Shown here: positions 3,426-61,230 of the stretch, one piece after another | Numbering within the stretch: position 1 is the stretch's first letter | How the letters are laid out: every line of letters starts with the position of its first letter | Source of the DNA: Panopea generosa | Lineage: Eukaryota; Mollusca; Bivalvia; Adapedonta; Hiatellidae | Reading direction: 5' to 3' | Assembly: GCA_029582155.1 (NCBI GenBank) | Contig: CM055906.1 | Location: 16,143,828-16,207,827 of the forward strand | Length of the DNA: 64,000 bases | Notes under the pieces: generated by a model | What the model saw: the letters and a program-made list of their open reading frames with translations, nothing else | Told to the model about the DNA's origin: nothing | Databases searched by the model: none | Program-made: the position numbers and the translations under genes

Positions 3426-4480
3426 AAAAGAAAACAAAATTAAATAATATATATATTTTATGACTTTTTCGTATTGAAAATATTAACCATTTTAAAATAA
3501 CATACATTTTTTATAATAGATTACACAGACACAGGATATAAGTTACTGATATACGTGTATGACAGTAAACATTAATAATAATGATAATGTTGTGTGTTTT
3601 TTTATTTTACGTTAACGTCCAAGGTTGATTTAAGTTCAATCTACACTGAGGTCCTCATTTGTGCTTAACATCATTTTCAACAAAAGGCTGATAATGTATT
3701 GCATATCCAGTTTTATTAGTTGACGAAGGCCTCAAGATAAATTTGAGTAGAACCACTTTCCTTCCGCAAGTAAATCGTATACTTTCTCCGATGGAGATTT
3801 TTGACCGATTGAGGCCGAACCTACGGCTTTAACGGCGAGAGATAGGCCGTCACTAAGTCGACTGCTCCTTTGAACAATCTGTCGCAGGTACTTTAAACAC
3901 GTGCTTAATTTGTCTTAACACAATTCGTTTAGATGGTAACTTAAGTTCATGAGTAAATGTGTAAAAGAGAAACCTATGCTTGCCAATTTTTTTTTATCAT
4001 TATACGTCAAATAAAAAATACAACGTCATATGTTTCAATACGTCAAGTCAGTAAATTGTTCCACCGTCACAGCAGTGTAGGACTAAGCGCGTCGAGGGTG
4101 TGTATGTTGAAAATTCCTTACCCTGGTACTAAATACGCGGAAATACTTGTCTAGTATGCAAGAATCATCAAGCAGTACCCAATGTCATTAAAATTTTACA
4201 GAACTCATGAAAATGTGTCAAATGTTCTCATATGTACAAAGAAATTATGACAATTATATGCATTTTCAACAGAAATAGATCTAATGCTAAACCGATTTAC
4301 ACAGACCTAATTTCTTGGGCGCAACAATCTCCCTACCGTCATATAAGTCTTAACTACAATGTATAATGAGGAGTGCAATAGTTTACGGTAGCTCCCAGAA
4401 CTTCCAAATCCAGCGGTTAGTGTACAAACCCAAAGCGGGCGCATTATATTCTTCGTGATTGTTATTTATGGTGACTTTTA
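3426..4480. other. unique sequence, nothing recognised
   Basis: A patch near 3770-3890 is less AT-rich than its surroundings and may be an old repeat, but no family was recognised. No convincing coding sequence was seen. Confidence 0.35.
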
Positions 4481-12942: not shown

Positions 12943-13676
12943 TACTGGTTAAAACTTAAGATATGGTATCTTGTCTCTATGCTTCTATAATATAAAGTAA
13001 AACTTAAGATATGGTATCTTGTCTCTATGCCTCTATAATATAAAGTAAAACTTAAGATATGGTATCTTGTCTCTATGCCTCTATAATATAAAGTAAAACT
13101 TAAGATATGGTATCTTGTCTCTATGCCTCGTTAATATAAAGTAAAACTTAAGATATGGTATCTTGTCTCTATGCCTCGTTAATATAAAGTAAAACTTAAG
13201 ATATGGTATCTTGTCTCTATGCCTCTATAATATAAAGTAAAACTTAAGATATGGTATCTTGTCTCTATGCCTCTATAATATAAAGTAAAACTTAAGATAT
13301 GGTATCTTGTCTCTATGCTTCTATAATATAAAGTAAAACTTAAGATATGGTATCTTGTCTCTATGCCTCGCTAATATAAAGTAAAACTTAAGATATGGTA
13401 TCTTGTCTCTATGCCTCGTTAATATAAAGTAAAACTTAAGATATGGTATCTTGTCTCTATGCCTCTATAATATAAAGTAAAACTTAAGATATGGTATCTT
13501 GTCTCTATGCCTCTATAATATAAAGTAAAACTTAAGATATGGTATCTTGTCTCTATGCTTCTATAATATAAAGTAAAACTTAAGATATGGTATCTTGTCT
13601 CCATGCCTCTATAATATAAAGTAAAACTTAAGATATGGTATCTTGTCTCTATGCCTCTATAATATAAAGTAAAACT
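12943..13676 (+). repeat. 48-bp minisatellite with a hairpin in every unit
   Basis: About 15 nearly identical units beginning GTAAAACTTAAGATATGGTA and ending CCTCTATAATATAAA. Each unit contains the perfect inverted repeat AAGATA-TGG-TATCTT. Units differ mainly at CCTCTATAATA versus CCTCGTTAATA or CTTCTATAATA, and these variants recur in blocks, showing recent multi-unit duplication. The minus-strand frame at 13419-13688 is an array frame with a 16-residue period. Confidence 0.95.
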
Positions 13677-13843
13677 AACTGCCATCATCCTTCAACACTA
13701 TCTACATATCTACTTTAAACAGATTCGTCTTCGTTTTAGCCTGTACCGATTTGCTCAGTCGGTAGCACGTCTGACTATCAATACAGAGATCGTGAGTTTC
13801 AATTCCCGCCTACCACAGTCTCCGTGATGAGTGATATATTCAA

Positions 13844-14300
13844 GGTCTCACTGAATAATTACCTCCCTTACATGACGGTAGCAAGATTATTACACCCGAG
13901 AAATTAGAGCTGTGTAAAGCGGTTGGGCAATATTTTTGTTAAAAATACATAAAATGTCATATTTCTTTGTGCATATGGGAACATTGGAACATTTTCATGA
14001 TTCCTGCAAAGTTTGGGGGACACTGGGAACTGTTTGATGATGCTATAACAGTTTAAAGATGCGTAGTGATACACTGCAACAAATGGGCACACTTGTCAAA
14101 AATGAAGGGGTGCCATCAAACCATCGAAATTGTGAAAAAGCAACCTGGTCAACCCCATGTTTTTTTTCTGAATATTTGGACCAACAGAGGACTATCTATG
14201 GGAATAAGGCACTTTTAGAACCATTGGTAATGTATCCAGTGTTCCAGAAGTGCATGTCTCTATATGTAAAACAGTACAAAATTAATTGGTGTGTGAGACG
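13844..14300. mobile_element. non-autonomous inverted-repeat element carrying an exon-like ORF
   Basis: Inserted into the middle of a SINE-A copy. It begins GGTCTCAC and ends GTGAGACG, inverted repeats like the termini of the elements at 16.6, 21.0, 29.7 and 50.7 kb. Target duplication is not clean (TTCAA left, TGACA right), so age or a complex event is possible. It contains the ORF described at 14059, and a related sequence without obvious ends lies at 17795-18068. Confidence 0.6.
14059..14268 (+). pseudogene. exon-like ORF, copy 1, unidentified protein
   Basis: The frame starts MRSDTLQQMGTLVKNEGV, continues SNHRNCEKA, PCFFSEYLDQQ, IYGNKALLEPLVM and YPVFQKC, and runs to 14400 only because it reads into the SINE tail. 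The homologous sequence at 17862-18038 shares about 36 of 58 residues, with many conservative changes, which is what a once-coding exon would show. The match also covers non-coding sequence upstream. There are invariant cysteines (NCEKA, PC) and a YGNK motif, but I do not recognise the family. The start methionine may be only an internal residue after a splice acceptor. It is probably a captured exon or a degenerate transposon gene rather than an active gene. Confidence 0.45.
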
Positions 14301-14475
14301 TGACATTGTGTCTCTTTGTCTTTCGTCTATCACCTCTATTTCAAGTGTTACTTGCGGTGTTGAGTTTGCTCAAGTACTGGTTACCCTTCCAGGATCTTAG
14401 GAAAGAGTGGTTAGGTTAACTGATCCTCTGTTAGCCATCGATGGTATTGAAATAAATGAAGCTAAATATATATAG

Positions 14476-15006
14476 TGATATATCAGGCAGGTTCAGGTTG
14501 TCTTATATATTGATATATCAGGCAGGTTCAGGTTGTGCTATCTATTGATATATCAGGCAGGTTCAGGCTGTCCTATCTATTGATATATCAGGCAGGTTCA
14601 GGCTGTCTTATATATTGATATATCAGGCAGGTTCAGGCTGTCCTATCTATTGATATATCAGGCAGGTTCAGGTTGTCCTTATCTATTGACATATCAGACA
14701 GGTTCAGGTTGTCCTATCTATTGATTTATCAGGCAGGTTCAGGTTGTCCTATCTATTGATATATCAAGCAGGTTCAGGTTGTCCTATCTATTGATATATC
14801 AAGCAGGTTCAGGTTGTCCTATCTATTGATATATCAGACAGGTTCAGGTTGTCCTATCTATTGATTTATCAGGCAGGTTCAGGTTGTCCTATCTATTGAT
14901 ATAACAAGCAGGTTCAGGTTGTCCTATCTATTGATATATCAGGCAGGTTCAGGTTGTCCTATCTATTGATATATCAGGCAGGTTCAGGTTGTCCTATCTT
15001 TTGATA
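14476..15006 (+). repeat. 35-bp minisatellite, about 15 copies
   Basis: Unit TTGATATATCAGGCAGGTTC then AGGTTGTCCTATCTA. It includes the palindrome TGATATATCA. It begins about 20 bases after the SINE-A tail. Confidence 0.95.
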
Positions 15007-16615
15007 CCAAATGTTTGCAGAAAATGTTACTGACCAGTAGCATATGTAATCACAGTTATATAGTCTACCATGGAGGGTGCACGTTGACCTTTGCCGAAAC
15101 AACCAAGAACTGCAACATGCGTGGCTCCAAAATGGATGTCACAAACCATGTCCATTTAAACGTTTAAGATTAACGTTCCACAGTTGTAGTTTATTATAAG
15201 TGTCTTTCGAGCATCGAACCTAGCACGGATGGCCGTAGGTTCGATCTCTTTTTATGACCATGTGTTGTATCTTCGAGCAAGATGATTTTTACTGGTACAA
15301 ACGAAATCAAGCAGAATAATTTTAAGTTGAAAAAAAGTTTCACGATGTAAAATAAATAGGTTTGATATGAGCATGGTAAATAAACGCAACCTTGACGTTG
15401 TTTAGAGACATATTCAACCAAAATTAATCACAGCCGATTAACCTTACTGAACTCTCATTAACAAGATAAATCTAAATCTGTATGTGTAGTTAAATACAAA
15501 TAGTTTGCCCTAACGAGTACTAAACACTGGTATTCCGTCCTATGGTTTATTAGCCAATATGTGTTGGTCATAAGCAACGAAAATATTCAACAAGATAGTA
15601 CAATTCTGAGGACAAAAACCGACCATAAGCACAAACAGAGATAATGACGAGCTCCGTGGGTACAACAAAATACTTAAAGAGTCAAAGTGTGTGAAAAACG
15701 AGTAATGAGCTATGGTGAGTGTTAGGAACCATTTGTTTCAGCTGTCCGAATGTTGCTTTACATATTAATACCGCTATATAAAATCATGTGACATTTGCAA
15801 TTTTAATGGTTCAAATTTTATATATATTTTACGTACCTGTTCACTGAACATCTAATGACAGCTAGATCAAATCGAAACACTTCGATGTAAATCTGTTAAA
15901 ATATAAGTTATACCAAACTGAATTAAAATCAAACAAATCAGTCAACTCTTAAAATATAATTGTAATATCGGCATCACTATCAGAAACCTTAATTCCAACT
16001 TCCCCATCTCCACAAATTTTTATACGGGCACGCATTTTCATTTTACTTTTTGCAAAGTGGGGGACTAATTTTACGAACATTGACAAATTTATGAGTATAA
16101 CAGTTTGCCTGTCAGATATTATTATGTTGCTGCAGAGATGTCGTCTGCTTATTACCAACAATTGCGTCTCACACAGTTATCACTGTCATTCGTAGTTACC
16201 ATGGAAGTGATGGATTTAAATAAGCATTGATTTCTCATAATATGTGTATTGTGTGACTATGAACCGAACTGATTTCAAAATAGCGGTTGTTGAATAAAAT
16301 ATCAAGTGTAACTTCTTGTCGGCAATCTTATCAGGCATTAGTTGGTGTATACTTCTTTTGTATGAGTACGTTCAATTCCAAATCTAATCTAAAATACGTT
16401 TGTTAAATAAAATTACATGATTGATATATATTTTTTATATAATTGGTTAGGTTAATTGCAAAATACAAATAATTCTAGTACATTTTTATCAACTTCATGT
16501 TATATAACTTTATCTTTCATTTACATGCAAATGTGAAAAAGGGTCACATTGTTCCATATTTATCGTTAGTATTGTGACGATGATAAACGTTTATGGTTCA
16601 GGAGCGGAATATACG
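15007..16615. other. mostly unique sequence, possible decayed SINE at 15205-15310
   Basis: GTAGGTTCGATCTC near 15235 looks like a B box, and the following CATGTGTTGTATC, CGAGCAAGATGA recalls the SINE-B body (TATGTGTGGTGT, TTGAGCAAGACA). No coding sequence was recognised elsewhere in the stretch. Confidence 0.35.
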
Positions 16616-17060
16616 TCTCACACCACTATTACATTTCCCATAGGGCTCCATTGTAACATTTATGACCAAAACACAGTGAAAAAACAAATTAAAATTCTTC
16701 ACTAGTTCAAGATATGCAATATATATGGGAAAAAAACATATCATTGACTAGGTTTTTTTTTTTTAATTTTATGCTTTTGTGAGAGCTATCAATTTCCAGA
16801 GTAATAATATGTCATCTATTCGCCCACGATGGAGTTCGAATCAACAATTCTGAAATGACACAGAATTGTCCAGAAAGCTGGCATCAGCATCAAATTTTCA
16901 GTGGTGATTTCAAAAATACTGACCATATCACTCATCTAGGAAAATTAAATCATAGGAGTACAAAGTCTTAAAAAAAGAAGAAAAACAATACTAAAGTTTT
17001 ATTTCTACCTACTTCACATGTAGGTCCGGAGTACTCAAGGGAGATAAAAGTAGTGTTAGA
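16616..17060 (+). mobile_element. non-autonomous DNA element, family M1, copy 1
   Basis: Starts TCTCACACCACTATTACA and ends AAAAGTAGTGTTAGACCT, an imperfect inverted repeat, flanked by ATACG on both sides (5-bp target duplication). The interior is about 80 percent identical by eye to 21020-21478 throughout (for example CATTTCCCATAG, GTCCAGAAAGCTG, CAGTGGTGATTT). There is no coding capacity. A third, truncated copy lies inverted at 36071-36370. Confidence 0.82.
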
Positions 17061-17503
17061 CCTATACGCGTTATTTCAGATTGCAGATAGTTGGTTACGA
17101 CACTATTAGTATTTGTCGAGTAAAGCCATAATTTGGACATTGAAAAGGAGATATCTTAGATTTTAAATATTTGAATTCACGACCTATGATATAGATGGAT
17201 TTCAAAGGGACCTTAAAATTCTTTGATTTCTCATAACAAAATTAGTGCAAGTCTGCTCTTGAAAGTATTAGATGGATTTCTTGTATTTGTACTTGTATTT
17301 ATTGCGTCTCGTTGTCTTATGATGTGACGACTAGAGAGAGCGAGGTCGAGTACAGTCAATAGGCAGGTTAAATCCAGTCAGTGGCAGTTTTACTATTGAC
17401 CGTTACAATGCGATGGCACCTGTTGTCACTTATGTTTGTTTATATTGTAATTATTGTGGATGAATTAGCTATGTTTGCGCAGTAGTTATCGATGTTATAT
17501 TTT
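17061..17503. other. unique sequence
   Basis: Nothing recognised. Confidence 0.4.
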
Positions 17504-17715
17504 AGTTTAAACTTATTTATTTTACTTAGATCGTGAAACAAGTTATTACAACTTATGTAAACCACGGTGAAAGTCTTTCAGAGTCAAACCAGTACTAAAC
17601 ATATGGGGAAAAGGTGTCTTGGTCAAGGACACCACACATAGCGGCAGAGCGGGAGAATCGAACCCACGACCCTCCGATCATGAATTAAGTGCTCTACCAC
17701 TGGACCATGCGCACC
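17504..17715 (-). mobile_element. tRNA-derived SINE, family B, copy 1
   Basis: On the minus strand: head GGTGCGCATGGTCCAGTGGT with AGAGCACTT (A box), GTGGGTTCGATTCTCCCG (B box), then a body with TATGTGTGGTGTCC, TTGACCAAGACA, TTAGTACTGG, ACTTTCACCGTGG, AAGTTGTAATAACTTGTTTC and an AAATAAATAAGTTTAAAC tail. Related copies are at 55791-55946 and 61046-61230. The head is derived from a tRNA but has no paired acceptor stem end, so it is not a tRNA gene. Confidence 0.82.
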
Positions 17716-17794
17716 TCATTATCCATTGAATGTACGTTTCTGTTAGGACATACCTTTTTTATTTGTATTTTGTGTGTCGGAACACTTCTGTGCT

Positions 17795-18068
17795 GTGTAA
17801 ATTGGTTGGGAATATTTTTCTTTGAATATGCTTTAAATGTGCATGTTTTTTTTCTAGATTATGCGTAGTGATTCACTGCATGAAATAGACAGAATAGTAA
17901 AAAATAAAGGGGTTTCATCAAACCATGAGTATTGTGAAAAAGCAATCGGGTCAATCCCATGTGTTTTCGCTGAATATTTGGAGCAACAGATGATAATCTA
18001 TGGAAACAAGGTGCTTTTAGACCCAATGGTTATGTGAACAGTGCAAAATTATTGTTGCGCGAGGCGTA
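17795..18068 (+). pseudogene. exon-like ORF, copy 2, unidentified protein
   Basis: A pyrimidine-rich run ending TTTTCTAG at 17858 looks like a 3' splice site. The frame from ATG at 17862 gives MRSDSLHEIDRIVKNKGV, then SNHEYCEKA, PCVFAEYLEQQ, IYGNKVLLDPMVM and a TGA stop at about 18036. It matches the ORF at 14059 at roughly 62 percent of residues. Upstream sequence (GCTGTGTAAA, GGTTGGG, AATATTTTT) and downstream sequence (CAGTGCAAAATTATTG then GCGCGAGGCG, compare CAGTACAAAATTAATTG and GTGTGAGACG) also match, so the whole mobile segment, not just an exon, is duplicated. No function is assigned. Confidence 0.42.
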
Positions 18069-20530: not shown

Positions 20531-21019
20531 TGAATGAAATTTTTTTTATCCCATTCCATGGTAAATTCAAACAATTTGAAGATGTGTTCAACAGAAGACG
20601 TAACGTTAAACACACAGACAACACAATGACATAACCATAATCAATATATGCATGCAAGAGCATACAATAGTTTAGTCTTTTTGTATAATAATCCGTTTAA
20701 ATAAAAGATTAAACTATCCATACAAACATATGTTCACACAATTTAAATCTTACAGTTATGTGTAACTATAGTAACAAAAGAACCGAACTTGATATTGATT
20801 ACATATATCATTATATCTAACATATATTTCATTGTTTAGGATTCCAATCACAGTATCATTTATAACTGTAGTAACATAACCAACTAATTACGATCCAAAT
20901 TAGTGATAAACGTCCCGATGTAATATACGTTGCTCATACACGTTTTATTATAAAGAACATATAATTTTATAATCAGAACGAAATGTGTTAGCAGTTTGGT
21001 AAGATATATCAATATAACG
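20531..21019. other. unique AT-rich sequence
   Basis: Nothing recognised. Confidence 0.4.
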
Positions 21020-21478
21020 TCTCACACCACTATTACATTTCCCATAGTGCGTCATTGTAACATTTATGTCCAAAACACAGTGAAAAAACAAAATCTGCAG
21101 CATGTATCTGGGCTCAAATTCTTCACTGGTTCAAGATATGCAATTATAAAGGGGAAAAAATCATACATTGAACAGTTTTTTTTTTAAATTCAATGCTTTT
21201 GATGAGACCTATCAGTTTCCAGAGAAATAATATGTCAACTATTCGCCTACGATGCTGTTCGAACTAACAATTCTGAAATGATACAGTATTGCCCAGAAAG
21301 CTGTTATCAGCATCAAATTTCAGTGGTGATTTCTAAAATACTGACCATTAATCATGTCAGGTAACACTAAATCACTGGAGTACAAAGCCCGGAAAAAAGA
21401 AGAAAAACAGAACTAAAGTTTTATTTCTACCACCTTCATCTGTCCAGAGTACTCAATTGAGATAAGAGTGGTGTGAGT
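21020..21478 (+). mobile_element. non-autonomous DNA element, family M1, copy 2
   Basis: Starts TCTCACACCACTATTACA and ends GATAAGAGTGGTGTGAGTCCT, a clear inverted repeat. Flanks are TAACG and GAACG, a near-match 5-bp duplication. It has the same interior as 16616-17060. Confidence 0.85.
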
Positions 21479-23328
21479 CCTGAACGTATGCATGTTATAT
21501 TCTATCCTGCAACTGCTGTTAACATCGTCTCTGTTCGACAGCAAATATGAATCGCCTAAATAATGTAATTGCAACGTAGGAATGATTGTTCCGAATCGTA
21601 ATTGGTAAGAACTACCATTACCATTTACAATGTATAACATCAGAGTAAAGTTAATTGCAACTCGAGAAATACTTTTTGTTGTAATTCGTATTAATATATG
21701 TGTACATTATATAAATTGTGTGCTGCTACAACGTCAATACAAGCAATTGGAACTGTCTGATTAGGTCTGCCTCTGTCATTTGTTTGAAATTCTCATTACA
21801 GTTGTACTACCTGTGGAAAGTACTTAAATATTTTGTGTTGTCAATTATAAACAACAGAGATGTTGGGATACAAGTTCTCTCAACACAAGCTATTGACCAT
21901 GCCTTGAACGTTTACTATAACAAATCGTTGTAATGAATCATTTAGTGTCCAGTTTCTTTTTCTGACCTTGACCTCTGCCTATCTATAAGCTTTACTGGAT
22001 TTGTAGGACTCGGTTAATATGCATCAAATATATTCAAATTGTTCTCGTCTCGGGAATAATAAACTTGCTAAAATATTGTTTTCCCGATGAATGTGACCCA
22101 ATAGTACAGTAAAAAGAGATTAAGCGTTGGATTGTAGTGTCAACTCAAAGAAAGATAACGAAGAAATGGACAATCGTGTTAGTTATTAATATTGTGATTG
22201 TTGTTTTCTGTCTTATGCTATATACAAACACCTTGATATTATCGGATATTTGAAATATTTATATTTCACGCGCGTTTTATTTTATCACTTTTTGTGGATT
22301 AAACGAGAGAACCATTGTCAGAGTGTCCTTAGTGTGCATGGATTACGCAACGCCAAGTGTTTTTTTAAATTAGAATGATGGTTAATTAATATCGTTAACA
22401 AATGTAGAGTAAATTCCATTTTTCAATACTTTGTTTTATGTCAACTACTGATTTCTATGCTATATTTTGTCAAGTAAAGCGTTAGTGAGTGATACTATTA
22501 CAAACAGTCGGACCACAAATACACTATTTTAGCTCTGATTTTGAGATAAAGAACGTAAGACATGATAAATGATTTTTTTAATCCGCCATTTTTAATACAC
22601 TCAGTCAACCTTAAGTTACCTGCCTTGAATGTGAATTATTTTATTTATATTAATCATGTAAAAACCTGCCCAGGAGCCAGAGTCATGTTGCGGCTTTTAT
22701 TTCGCAGTTGGTATTTTAAGACGCTGATAACAAAATTGTTTTGTCATTTTATATCTCTCTTTGAACTCATTTTAATTATAAATTAGCAAAGTGTATTTTC
22801 CTTGTTCGTGTAAATATTTGAACACTAGATATAAGATTACGTTTCATCCAATATTTCATTGTATTACGTGATAGTAAATTTCAGCATTCCATTAGTTATC
22901 GTCCTTCTCCTGTGTTAAACACTCAAATGTCATTACATTATTAAATTATCTGAGAGTTTACATTATACCAAAACCCATTATGTCCAATTGTGCTTTTTCA
23001 ATGATTTCCACTAAAACATCTCTCTAACAAACCGATAGTATCAGAACGATATATAAAACATCTAGGATATAACATCCATCATATTACAAAAACGGTAATC
23101 CGAGGTCATGTTAGAATTATATGATGAAGTCCATCAATGATACTTGATGAACTATATATGTAGTTTAGTTTATAAGTTTCATAATAGAAAAAGATAACAC
23201 CGCTGTAAGCACAATCTTAATAAACGCCTTTGTAGAATACAAATCCATCTAAAGTTTTCGCTACACAAATGTGAGAGCAAAATGTTTATTTAAACCCCGA
23301 CATTTCTAGTAAATACAACTGATGCCTC
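21479..23328. other. unique sequence, one duplicated patch
   Basis: Around 22068-22150 it matches 11135-11225 (CCGATGAATGTGACCCAATA, TACAGTAAA, GGATTGTAGTGTCAA). The rest has no recognised gene; the open frames at 21718 and 22562 lack splice or homology support. Confidence 0.4.
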
Positions 23329-35431: not shown

Positions 35432-36070
35432 CTGAAGTGTAAATGGCAGTATTTGTATAGGGTTGCACTATTCTACAATGTTAAAACTGTCGATACTGAA
35501 TCCGTGACATTGAAATAAGAATCGACAAGCCTCCGTTACCCTGTCGTCACAAAGCTGTGACATTTTAAAAATTAGAAATTTATATAAACGAATAAATGCG
35601 TGTTCTGGCATTACCAAAACTTAGCAGTAAAGTGACTACATTTATTATTTATCATGCTGGTTGTGATTTCATGTGGTGGTTGTGTCAGTTATTAACATAT
35701 ATTAAAAAAGCTCCAATGACAGAGAAATGCAATTAAATTGCTTTCAAACTTGAAGAAATTGTCATAATCAAATGTTCAATTTGATCGCAATTTACTAATA
35801 ATACAAAAAAATTCCCGAATGTAAAAATATACTTCATATGTTTGGGTATATTTAACATATTCAAAACATCCGTGGTATTGTCCCCGCTTTCGACTAGAAA
35901 CTGTCAAAATTTACAAAACCAGTACTTCTGTCGACGTGAATCTGTGACAAACTGTCGACGCAAATCACTAGATACGTTGTGACAAAGTTCCCTGACCGTG
36001 TACTTGGCCGAGTTAACGACGTAAGTTTAGGTAGTCTTATTCCACTCCGTCCAACGTCAGCGGGTACTGG
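35432..36070. other. unique sequence
   Basis: Nothing recognised. The 35894-36076 minus frame has no recognisable domain. Confidence 0.35.
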
Positions 36071-36370
36071 ACTCACACCACTATTATCTCCTAAGAGTAC
36101 TCTGGACAGATGAAGGAGGTAGAAATAAAACTTAAGTTATATTTTTCTTCTTTTCTTCAGGGCTTTAAACTGCAATGGTTTGTTTTTAGCTAGTATTAGT
36201 TAAATGATCAGTATTTTAGAAGTCACCACTGAAAATTTGATGCTGATACCAGCTTTCTAGACAATTCTGTGTCATATCAGAATTGTTGGTTGGAACCGCA
36301 TCTAGGGCGAATAATTGACATATTATTACTCTGGAAATTGGTAGGTCTCACAAAAGCATTGTTTTATATA
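36071..36370 (-). mobile_element. family M1, copy 3, truncated
   Basis: Inverted relative to the copies at 16.6 and 21.0 kb. It begins at the terminal repeat (GGACTCACACCACTATTATC) and matches through CAGTATTTTAGAAGTCACCACTG and TCTGGAAATTGGTAGGTCTC to 36370, then stops, so the far terminus is missing. Confidence 0.82.
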
Positions 36371-37623: not shown

Positions 37624-38159
37624 TTATAAAGTAACACGAAAGTTAGTACGCTTGATCAAGACACCGATGAAGCTCGGAAGCCCGTAGTTATGGTTGATGT
37701 ATAGTAGGTCCCCGTATGTTCCCTCCGTGACGAACACATCGTCACCCTTCGTCAGATATACGAGGAAAGAACGAGATGTGCATTCGGAAAATGCATCATC
37801 ACCAGCCAATACGCGACCTACAGTGGCGCTGTTTTTCATAAGACCGAGGACGATTGTATGCGCCGAGTGAGAGCAAACATTTAAAGAAAAGAGATATGTG
37901 CCGTTGATTGGAGCGATGAAGTTTCCATGGTAATTGTTGTATGCGTTGCCTGTTTTCAGCTGGACGCTATCGTAGACGATCGGTTGTCTCTGTGTACCCG
38001 CAATCGAGCTCGTTCAATATGCCATGAAAGATACTGGTGCATGGGTAGTCATAACTGAAAAATTATCCAAAAAAAATATGTTTTAATATTGCGTCATTTA
38101 AATGTATGTTAAGAAATTTAATAAGAAAATGTATGTCCAGAAAGGTATGCACATTCACA

Positions 38160-42270: not shown

Positions 42271-42562
42271 CCGGGCCCAATAAGCTTAGTTGGTAGCACA
42301 TCCGACTATCAATCCAGGGGTCGTGAGTTTGAATCCCCATTCTGCAAAAGTCTCCTTGATGATTGATGTACGACATTGCATCTCATTATCATTTGTCTCT
42401 CACAGCTGATTCAAGTGAGAAAGTTATCGGTTACTTGTGGAGATGGGGTGTGCTCAAGTACTGGTTAACCTTTCAGGATCCAAAGAAAGAGTGGTTAGAC
42501 TAACTGATCGTCTGTTAGCCTTCGATGGCATAAAATCTCACTAAATATTCAACCAATCAATT
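42271..42562 (+). mobile_element. SINE-A, near full-length copy
   Basis: GGGCCCAATAAGCTTAGTTG (A-box region), GGGTCGTGAGTTTGAATCCCC (B-box region), GATTGATGTACGACATTGC, GGTGTGCTCAAGTACTGG, GAGTGGTTAGACTAACTGATC and an ACTAAATATTCAACCAATCA end. About 290 bp. Confidence 0.88.
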
Positions 42563-45985: not shown

Positions 45986-46138
45986 CACGTCTGGTCAGCT
46001 CAGACGGTAGCCGGCTTACTATCAATCCGGGGGTCATGAGTTTGAATCTCCATGTGATGATTAATAAACAACACTACAACTAATTGTCATTCATCTCTCA
46101 CTTGCAGAGATGGGTGTGCCTGAGTACTGAGTTACTAG
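45986..46138 (+). mobile_element. SINE-A, internally deleted copy
   Basis: GGTCAGCTCAGACGGTAG, GGGGGTCATGAGTTTGAATC and GAGATGGGTGTGCCTGAGTAC are present; about 40 bases of the middle and all the 3' end are missing. It abuts the next copy head-to-tail. Confidence 0.8.
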
Positions 46139-46430
46139 CCGGGCCCGATTAGCTCAGTTGGTAACGCGTCTGACTATCAATTCAGGGGTCGTGAGTTCTA
46201 ATTCCAGCCCGGCAAGTCTCCATGATGATTGACATACAACATTGTGTCTCGTTATTATTCGTATCGCACCGCTGATTCCAGTGGGAAGTTATCGGGTACT
46301 TGCGGAAATTGGGTGTACTCGAGTACTGGTTAACCTTTCAGAATTCCAGGAAACAGTGGTTAGGTTAATTGATTGTCTGTCAGCCCTCGATAGCATAAAA
46401 ATGACACTAAATATTCAATCAATCAAAACT
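46139..46430 (+). mobile_element. SINE-A, best-preserved head and tail
   Basis: GGGCCCGATTAGCTCAGTTG, then GTAACGCGTCTGACTATCAA, then GTGAGTTCTAATTCCAGCCC; a head of about 72 bases whose two ends (GGGC..., ...GCCC) can pair, so it looks almost like a tRNA. The anticodon region does not fold cleanly, and the body and ATTCAATCAATCAAAAC end match the other SINE-A copies. Confidence 0.88.
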
Positions 46431-55790: not shown

Positions 55791-55946
55791 GTTCGATACT
55801 CCGCCACGGCTATGTGTGGTGTTCTTGAGCAAGACACTTTTCCGCATATGCTTAATATCGGTTCTAACCAGGAAGACTTCGAGTGTGGTTTTGCCTAAGT
55901 TGTAAGAACATGTTTCACAATTTAAGTAAAGTAAATACGTTTAAAC
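55791..55946 (+). mobile_element. SINE-B, copy 2, 5'-truncated
   Basis: Begins within the B box (GTTCGATACTCCGCC) and continues TATGTGTGGTGTTC, TTGAGCAAGACACTTTTCCG, ATGCTTAATATCGG and ACTTCGAGTGTGG to a GTTTAAAC end. It is only in duplicate copy 1. Confidence 0.82.
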
Positions 55947-56109
55947 TAAAGAAAAAGAAATTGAAACTGTAATATGAATAACTTTCTTGTAATATTAGCT
56001 ATAACATAAAATACATAAATTTGACATATATTGTGGGATTTGTCAGGCAAGAAAAATCATATAGCACTGCAATAGTTTTCACACTTTCGAAACATATAAC
56101 GTGACAATA

Positions 56110-61045: not shown

Positions 61046-61230
61046 TGGAGTGCCAGGTCCAGTGGCAGAGCATTGGACCCAGTATCATGAGGGTCGTGGG
61101 TTCGATCCTCTGCGACAACCTTTAGCAAGACAGTTTATCCGTATATGCTTAGTATTGGTTGTACACAGGAAGATTTCGAGCGTGATTTGTTTTAATAACT
61201 TGTTTTACAATCGACGTAAAATAAAAAAGA
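61046..61230 (+). mobile_element. SINE-B, copy 3
   Basis: AGTGCCAGGTCCAGTGGCAG (A box), GGGTCGTGGGTTCGATCCTC (B box), AGCAAGACAGTTTATCCG, ATGCTTAGTATTGG, GATTTCGAGCGTG and AATAACTTGTTTTACAATCG. Confidence 0.82.

Follow-up and report, generated by a model that had tools for sequence, protein, structure and literature searches.

The SINE-A locus and its insertion

The window, by which we mean the whole stretch of 64,000 nucleotides of Panopea generosa DNA that was analysed, has a GC content of 34% and contains, at ~13737-14458, a tRNA-type SINE (SINE-A) that is split by one interruption, a unit of 457 bp (13844-14300) which begins GGTCTCAC and ends GTGAGACG. Uninterrupted copies of the SINE at 42.3 and 46.1 kb, compared by within-window blastn and alignment, read through the junction unbroken, bearing out the proposal of an earlier reading made from the letters of the window (the sequence-only reading) that the SINE is cut by the 457 bases 13844-14300. 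In the blastn comparison the left SINE half (13737-13838) was 80% identical to 46136-46236 and 79% identical to 42284-42370, and the right half (14302-14447) was 75% identical to 42372-42531. Measured against the uninterrupted copies the extra sequence amounts to 462 bases, i.e. the 457 bp unit together with the pentanucleotide TTCAA (13839-13843), which those copies lack and which equals the last five bases of the internal segment (INT) described below. No target duplication is visible at this insertion, where the flanks, …GATATA to the left and TGACATTG… to the right, rejoin as SINE sequence of unchanged length. The coordinates of all features are collected in Table 1.

Table 1. Features of the interrupted SINE, the insert and its relatives in the window.
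Positions	Strand	Feature	Evidence
4161-4347	-	Another diverged T relative (78% identity with 13867-14044), not within the ORF	Within-window comparison
13737-13838	+	SINE-A 5' part, recipient of the insertion	blastn to 46136-46236 and 42284-42370; alignment
13839-13843	+	TTCAA, extra to the SINE; possibly the footprint of a former neighbour or a carried-over spacer	
13844-14300	+	Insert; very probably a terminal direct repeat (T), in solo form, from a non-autonomous KolobokP-like element	Genome copies; consensus
13844-13861	+	Left arm of imperfect 18-bp terminal inverted repeat (14/18 in consensus)	
14059-14232	+	'Exon-like' frame (58 codons compared); needs the 8-T run 14160-14167; shifted in complete-element repeats	
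14283-14300	+	Right arm of imperfect terminal inverted repeat	
14301-14458	+	SINE-A 3' part; abuts the sequence ending at 13838 without visible target duplication or length change	blastn; alignment
17792-18043	+	Diverged relative of T, ~80%	Within-window comparison

Minisatellite arrays, which are numerous across the window, flank the interrupted SINE at 12950-13676 (48 bp x 15, 97% matches) and 14469-15006 (35 bp x 15, 94%), the second beginning ~10 bases past the SINE 3' end as placed in the sequence-only reading. A second tRNA-type SINE, in reverse orientation, was recognised by eye at 17501-17706, just upstream of the diverged relative of the insert at 17.8 kb, and has partial matches at 55809-55950 and 61056-61229. 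Another dispersed repeat is present in three copies that are 81-84% identical (16608-17070, 21011-21481 and 36061-36361), and a frame on the minus strand at 37624-38013 encodes a C1q domain (Pfam PF00386, E 3.4e-16), which together with the GC content of 34% would suit a bivalve host. Rfam, at gathering scores, and ARAGORN returned nothing over the whole window.

Copies of the insert in the genome and their target duplications

The genome to which the window belongs (1,474,161,289 bases in 39 contigs, the window occupying 16143828-16207827 of contig C13) was searched with the insert, hereafter T, and the best 40 of 1821 first-look candidates, the window copy included, were scored and all fetched; as these 40 match the window copy best, the ages and structures seen among them are biased towards its relatives. 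All 40 are 95-100% identical and span at least query positions 2-455 of 457, and the copies have unrelated flanks and like ends. Exact 4-bp duplications border 10 of the 21 solo T with distinct flanks (TATA four times, TAAA twice, and TTTA, GGAA, AAAA and TTAG once each), compared with a mean of 1.7 and a maximum of 7 in 20,000 trials in which the flanks were permuted. The same holds for the outer ends of 8 of the 12 complete elements described below, the exceptions being L031, L034, L045 and L046, such that 11 solo T and four complete elements are without an exact 4-bp duplication. Not one of the 18 exact duplications, 10 at solo T and 8 at complete elements, is TTAA. In this count, copies whose flanks were identical were treated as one, L041 and L042 with L027, and L041 represents the three in the alignment. 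These three solo T, on contig C4 at 42.73-42.87 Mb, have the same TATA-flanked neighbours and span ~130 kb, a pattern that resembles the outcome of a local duplication.

The sequence-only reading had taken the 457 bases for a mobile unit with GTCTCAC-type ends, and this is upheld by the at least 40 copies found, which share the same ends and of which about half of those tested carry 4-bp duplications. The ends GGTCTCAC and GTGAGACG that it had singled out are present and lengthen into an imperfect 18-bp inverted repeat. The T family is young and, with 1821 first-look candidates of which the best 40 were scored, probably large.

T is the terminal direct repeat of a longer element

Particular flanks recur beside T, one on its left that ends …TTTCTACTCTTCAA and one on its right that starts TTCAAGAACCAGATC, because T is the terminal direct repeat of a longer element, T-INT-T. 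Examined in the longer stretches of the fetched loci, the complete element reads T(456)-INT(2172)-T(456), ~3.08 kb in all, and 11 such copies and one with the structure T-INT-INT-INT-T (L045) were found among the loci of the 40 best matches. INT is 95.1-99.1% identical between different copies and both starts and finishes with TTCAA, a single TTCAA being present at each of the two INT-INT joints of L045. No long frame is present in INT, as read in one copy (no stop-free stretch exceeds 91 codons), as expected for a non-autonomous family.

The alignment of T covers 37 sequences, namely both repeats of each of the 12 complete elements (24) and 13 solo copies. Outside it stand the other eight of the 21 solo T used in the duplication count (L013, L015, L016, L018, L021, L022, L023 and L053) and the interrupted or truncated elements L032/L048, L035, L050 and L054. 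The 37-copy consensus is 456 bp long with the ends GG...CG, and its first 18 bases agree with the reverse complement of its last 18 at 14 positions, 7 of them contiguous, a score that was matched by no random internal pair in up to 100,000 trials. The window T differs from the consensus at 14 of 456 aligned bases (3.1%).

The three INTs of L045 (L045:2051-9446, displayed reversed) are 99.5-99.8% identical and have 13 private variants in common, whilst its two T differ at 7 of 419 positions (1.67%). An origin of the INT-INT-INT array at the birth of the element was rejected on this difference between the INTs and the T pair, and INT probably multiplied after insertion. A 73-74% partial relative of T lies ~1.6 kb past a complete element (L031:6190-6295) and may be part of another terminal-repeat family.

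The exon-like frame

According to the sequence-only reading the mobile unit carried protein-like sequence, with a homologue at 17795-18068 and ~62% residue identity between the two, and it was proposed that an exon had been captured or that a small transposon gene had left its relic. The homologue is real: 13909-13968 matches 17792-17852 (79%) and 14059-14241 matches 17861-18043 (80%, ungapped), giving 17792-18043 at ~80%, and the residue identity of 62% was recovered over 58 codons. Such a value is explained by neutral drift, which yields as much at that DNA divergence; the 22 residue differences observed compare with 22.2-22.5 expected in a neutral simulation without selection on the protein, and ~23% of the simulated neutral sequences would retain an open frame. 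Three observations lean mildly the other way, toward coding constraint, namely a dN/dS point estimate of 0.52 for the window frame against the 17.8-kb relative, a slight excess of mismatches at third codon positions (12, 9 and 15 by position, P ~0.15) and the absence of gaps from the 183-bp frame match as against several in the non-coding match.

In the complete elements the frame is shifted in 24 of 24 T, which read LHI(W/C)T... where the window reads ...YLDQQ. The consensus has a tract of seven T residues and the window one of eight, and beyond this tract the frame of the complete elements departs from that of the window. A stop is reached by codon 52 in 23 of these 24 repeats, the remaining one (L029_T2) being open to codon 81 via a further shift. 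Of the 21 solo repeats 13 were examined for the frame of the window; five reach it, and four of these five are open for 80-81 codons. The frame matched no Pfam family at E <= 10 and its best matches in PDB had E >= 0.5, whilst a viral_contigs scan with the peptide of the homologue gave eight pattern-matching stretches and no relatives.

Exon capture by a non-autonomous element, or the ordinary duplication of a host intron/exon block, could draw on the gapless 183 bp, on the dN/dS estimate and on a splice-acceptor-like tract ahead of the frame (17846-17857), but it is mostly refuted and we regard it as highly improbable, given that the frame is shifted throughout the complete elements, that residue differences are at the neutral expectation with no Pfam family found, and that what the copies have in common is the mobile unit in its entirety, ends included, set in flanks that are unrelated. 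The transposon gene relic is unsupported on the same frame, Pfam and residue evidence. Of the earlier claim the mobility stands and the protein-like gene is not supported. A coding role for the ORF was rejected on the Pfam and PDB searches, the neutral simulation and the frame comparison; the stretch is ordinary terminal-repeat sequence that does not look like a conserved gene, and the ORF plays no part in the explanation given below.

Homology that extends into the non-coding flanks would be accounted for by both copies being related to one terminal repeat. The sequence-only reading named one homologue and overlooked a third member, at 4161-4347 on the minus strand. The 17.8-kb and 4.2-kb relatives align to different, partly overlapping portions of T and are, on sequence similarity, best read as old sister repeats, with 17792-18043 probably an old related terminal repeat.

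Comparison with KolobokP

We consider it very probable that the insert represents a terminal direct repeat, standing alone, from a family of non-autonomous, composite-like DNA transposons that operate in the manner of KolobokP, because T copies lie in unrelated flanks, with 4-bp duplications, inverted repeats, a T-INT-T anatomy and INT multimer joints. In the published description (Kojima and Bao, 2022; PMC9587614), KolobokP elements, known from clams and oysters and abundant in bivalves, are DNA transposons of composite-like structure whose long terminal direct repeats (LTDRs) of ~450 or 660 bp have short inverted repeats of their own (11-18 bp in oyster). The published families number 228. 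Also described are 3-5 bp duplications around monomers and solo LTDRs, multimers of the form LTDR-(INT)n-LTDR in which a joint retains one copy of the shared INT tip, and non-autonomous C. gigas families of 1,738-3,261 bp. Kolobok termini are given there as 5'-RR...YY-3', KolobokP being without strong target preference, and excision is described as leaving a footprint of 1-5 bp at one side, with a circular intermediate left undecided.

Set against this description, the family reported here resembles non-autonomous KolobokP of the ~450-bp LTDR class in its LTDR-INT-LTDR architecture with a T of 456 bp, in the inverted repeats of T itself (14/18 bases, 7 contiguous), in the occurrence of solo repeats and of 4-bp duplications (8/12 complete, 10/21 solo), in the T-INT-INT-INT-T structure with one TTCAA per joint (in one copy, L045) and in a total length of ~3.08 kb that falls inside the C. 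gigas range. It departs from that description at the 3' end of T, which in the 37-copy consensus is CG and not YY, the 5' end GG fitting RR, and in the presence of TTCAA beside some solo repeats outside the INT context. Ordinary Kolobok lineages have a TTAA-specific 4-bp duplication, unlike the 0/18 found here. The CG 3' end, the lack of a TTAA duplication, the homogenisation of T within each copy and the missing duplications all count against the KolobokP-like reading, which we still regard as very likely; as to the third of these, a homogenised T pair in each copy would not be produced by simple whole-unit cut-and-paste. The family probably belongs to KolobokP, to which it is likened by published description, and the 3' CG end leaves this assignment at the level of resemblance, i.e. 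KolobokP-like. There is also a likeness to bacterial composite transposons and IS26-like translocatable units, as cited in PMC9587614, in that a passenger is enclosed by mobile repeats in direct orientation, each with inverted ends of its own, although here the host is an animal and the repeats show no conserved gene.

Variants shared by the two T of an element and alternative explanations

Among the 24 T of the 12 complete elements, 18 variants (in 9 elements) are common to both T of one element and occur in none of the others, compared with one T1-T2 variant private to a pair from different elements, and three further variants are limited to the T1s (two) or the T2s (one) of two or three elements. 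T identity averages 98.75% within an element and 97.96% in permuted pairs, the former value never being reached in 20,000 permutations. Shared variants would not be expected from whole-unit cut-and-paste, or from a circle recombining into an older solo T; copying from a one-T template would give them, as would gene conversion from one T to the other within a copy, and LTR retrotransposition likewise.

The shared variants are the main support for the main rival, in which the window insert is the solo LTR of a non-autonomous LTR retrotransposon (TRIM/LARD-like), T-INT-T being copied through RNA and solo copies arising via LTR recombination. The family has in common with TRIM/LARD elements its long terminal direct repeats, solo repeats, short (4-bp) target duplications and repeats that are alike within a copy, and TRIMs are reported in bivalves (PMC6934838). 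We judge this origin unlikely, however, since TGG (the tRNA primer site) is absent from the first 10 INT bases on either strand in 14/14 INTs, and there is no polypurine tract, the longest purine run in the last 40 INT bases being 4 (plus) or 5 (minus) in 14/14 INTs. Moreover, T ends in GG...CG and not TG...CA and has an 18-bp inverted repeat at its ends, INT opens and closes with the same TTCAA, and the INT-INT joints, seen in one copy, have a single TTCAA and are without a terminal repeat.

That T is an independent MITE, and that T-INT-T is a chance assembly of two MITEs with a passenger segment between them, would accord with the solo T that have their own 4-bp duplications and inverted-repeat ends and with INT tips (TTCAA) that resemble the target duplication of a T insertion. 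T-INT-T is, however, multicopy with a uniform INT (95.1-99.1% between copies), and private variants are common to both T of a copy, making the accidental composite quite unlikely; between the MITE reading and KolobokP the difference is one of emphasis, not of kind. A Helitron, for which CTRR is the end motif, was rejected as no CTRR end was found and target duplications are present.

How the copies may arise

In the KolobokP-like reading, an autonomous relative would provide a Kolobok-type transposase in trans, and this enzyme, acting at the short inverted repeats that bound T, would mobilise T-INT-T or T alone. TTCAA adjoins one end of five of the 21 solo T, the left in L001 (that of the window), L044 and L047 and the right in L003 and L057, and none of these five has a 4-bp duplication. 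At the window-wide TTCAA frequency of 0.26% per position the binomial P for 5/21 is ~9e-8, in a test chosen post hoc. The T of the window, with TTCAA on its left, would have lost, or never had, a target duplication. It may be what is left of a T-INT-T insertion after loss of INT and of one T with the duplication beside it, or else a T linearised from a circle bearing a TTCAA spacer, and both routes would fit the TTCAA-flanked solo T. We tentatively put forward, as a possibility to be weighed rather than a favoured outcome, that new T-INT-T copies are built on a one-T template, such as a circle with a single repeat that is copied through more than one round, without reverse transcription, and that T may exit with a 5-bp TTCAA spacer.

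Wider meaning

The mobile insertion at this locus is real, the exon capture is not, and the element is of a kind already known. What was suspected to be exon capture becomes a known but little-described composite-like transposon type, a case in which a terminal repeat, read alone, can mimic a gene-bearing mobile unit. If the one-T template is true, copies would be born with two identical ends and the TTCAA spacer from INT would mark later insertions, that of the window included, which would be evidence, at the sequence level, of the circular intermediate on which the KolobokP authors did not decide. The family can serve to test how KolobokP-like elements maintain two identical ends without reverse transcription.
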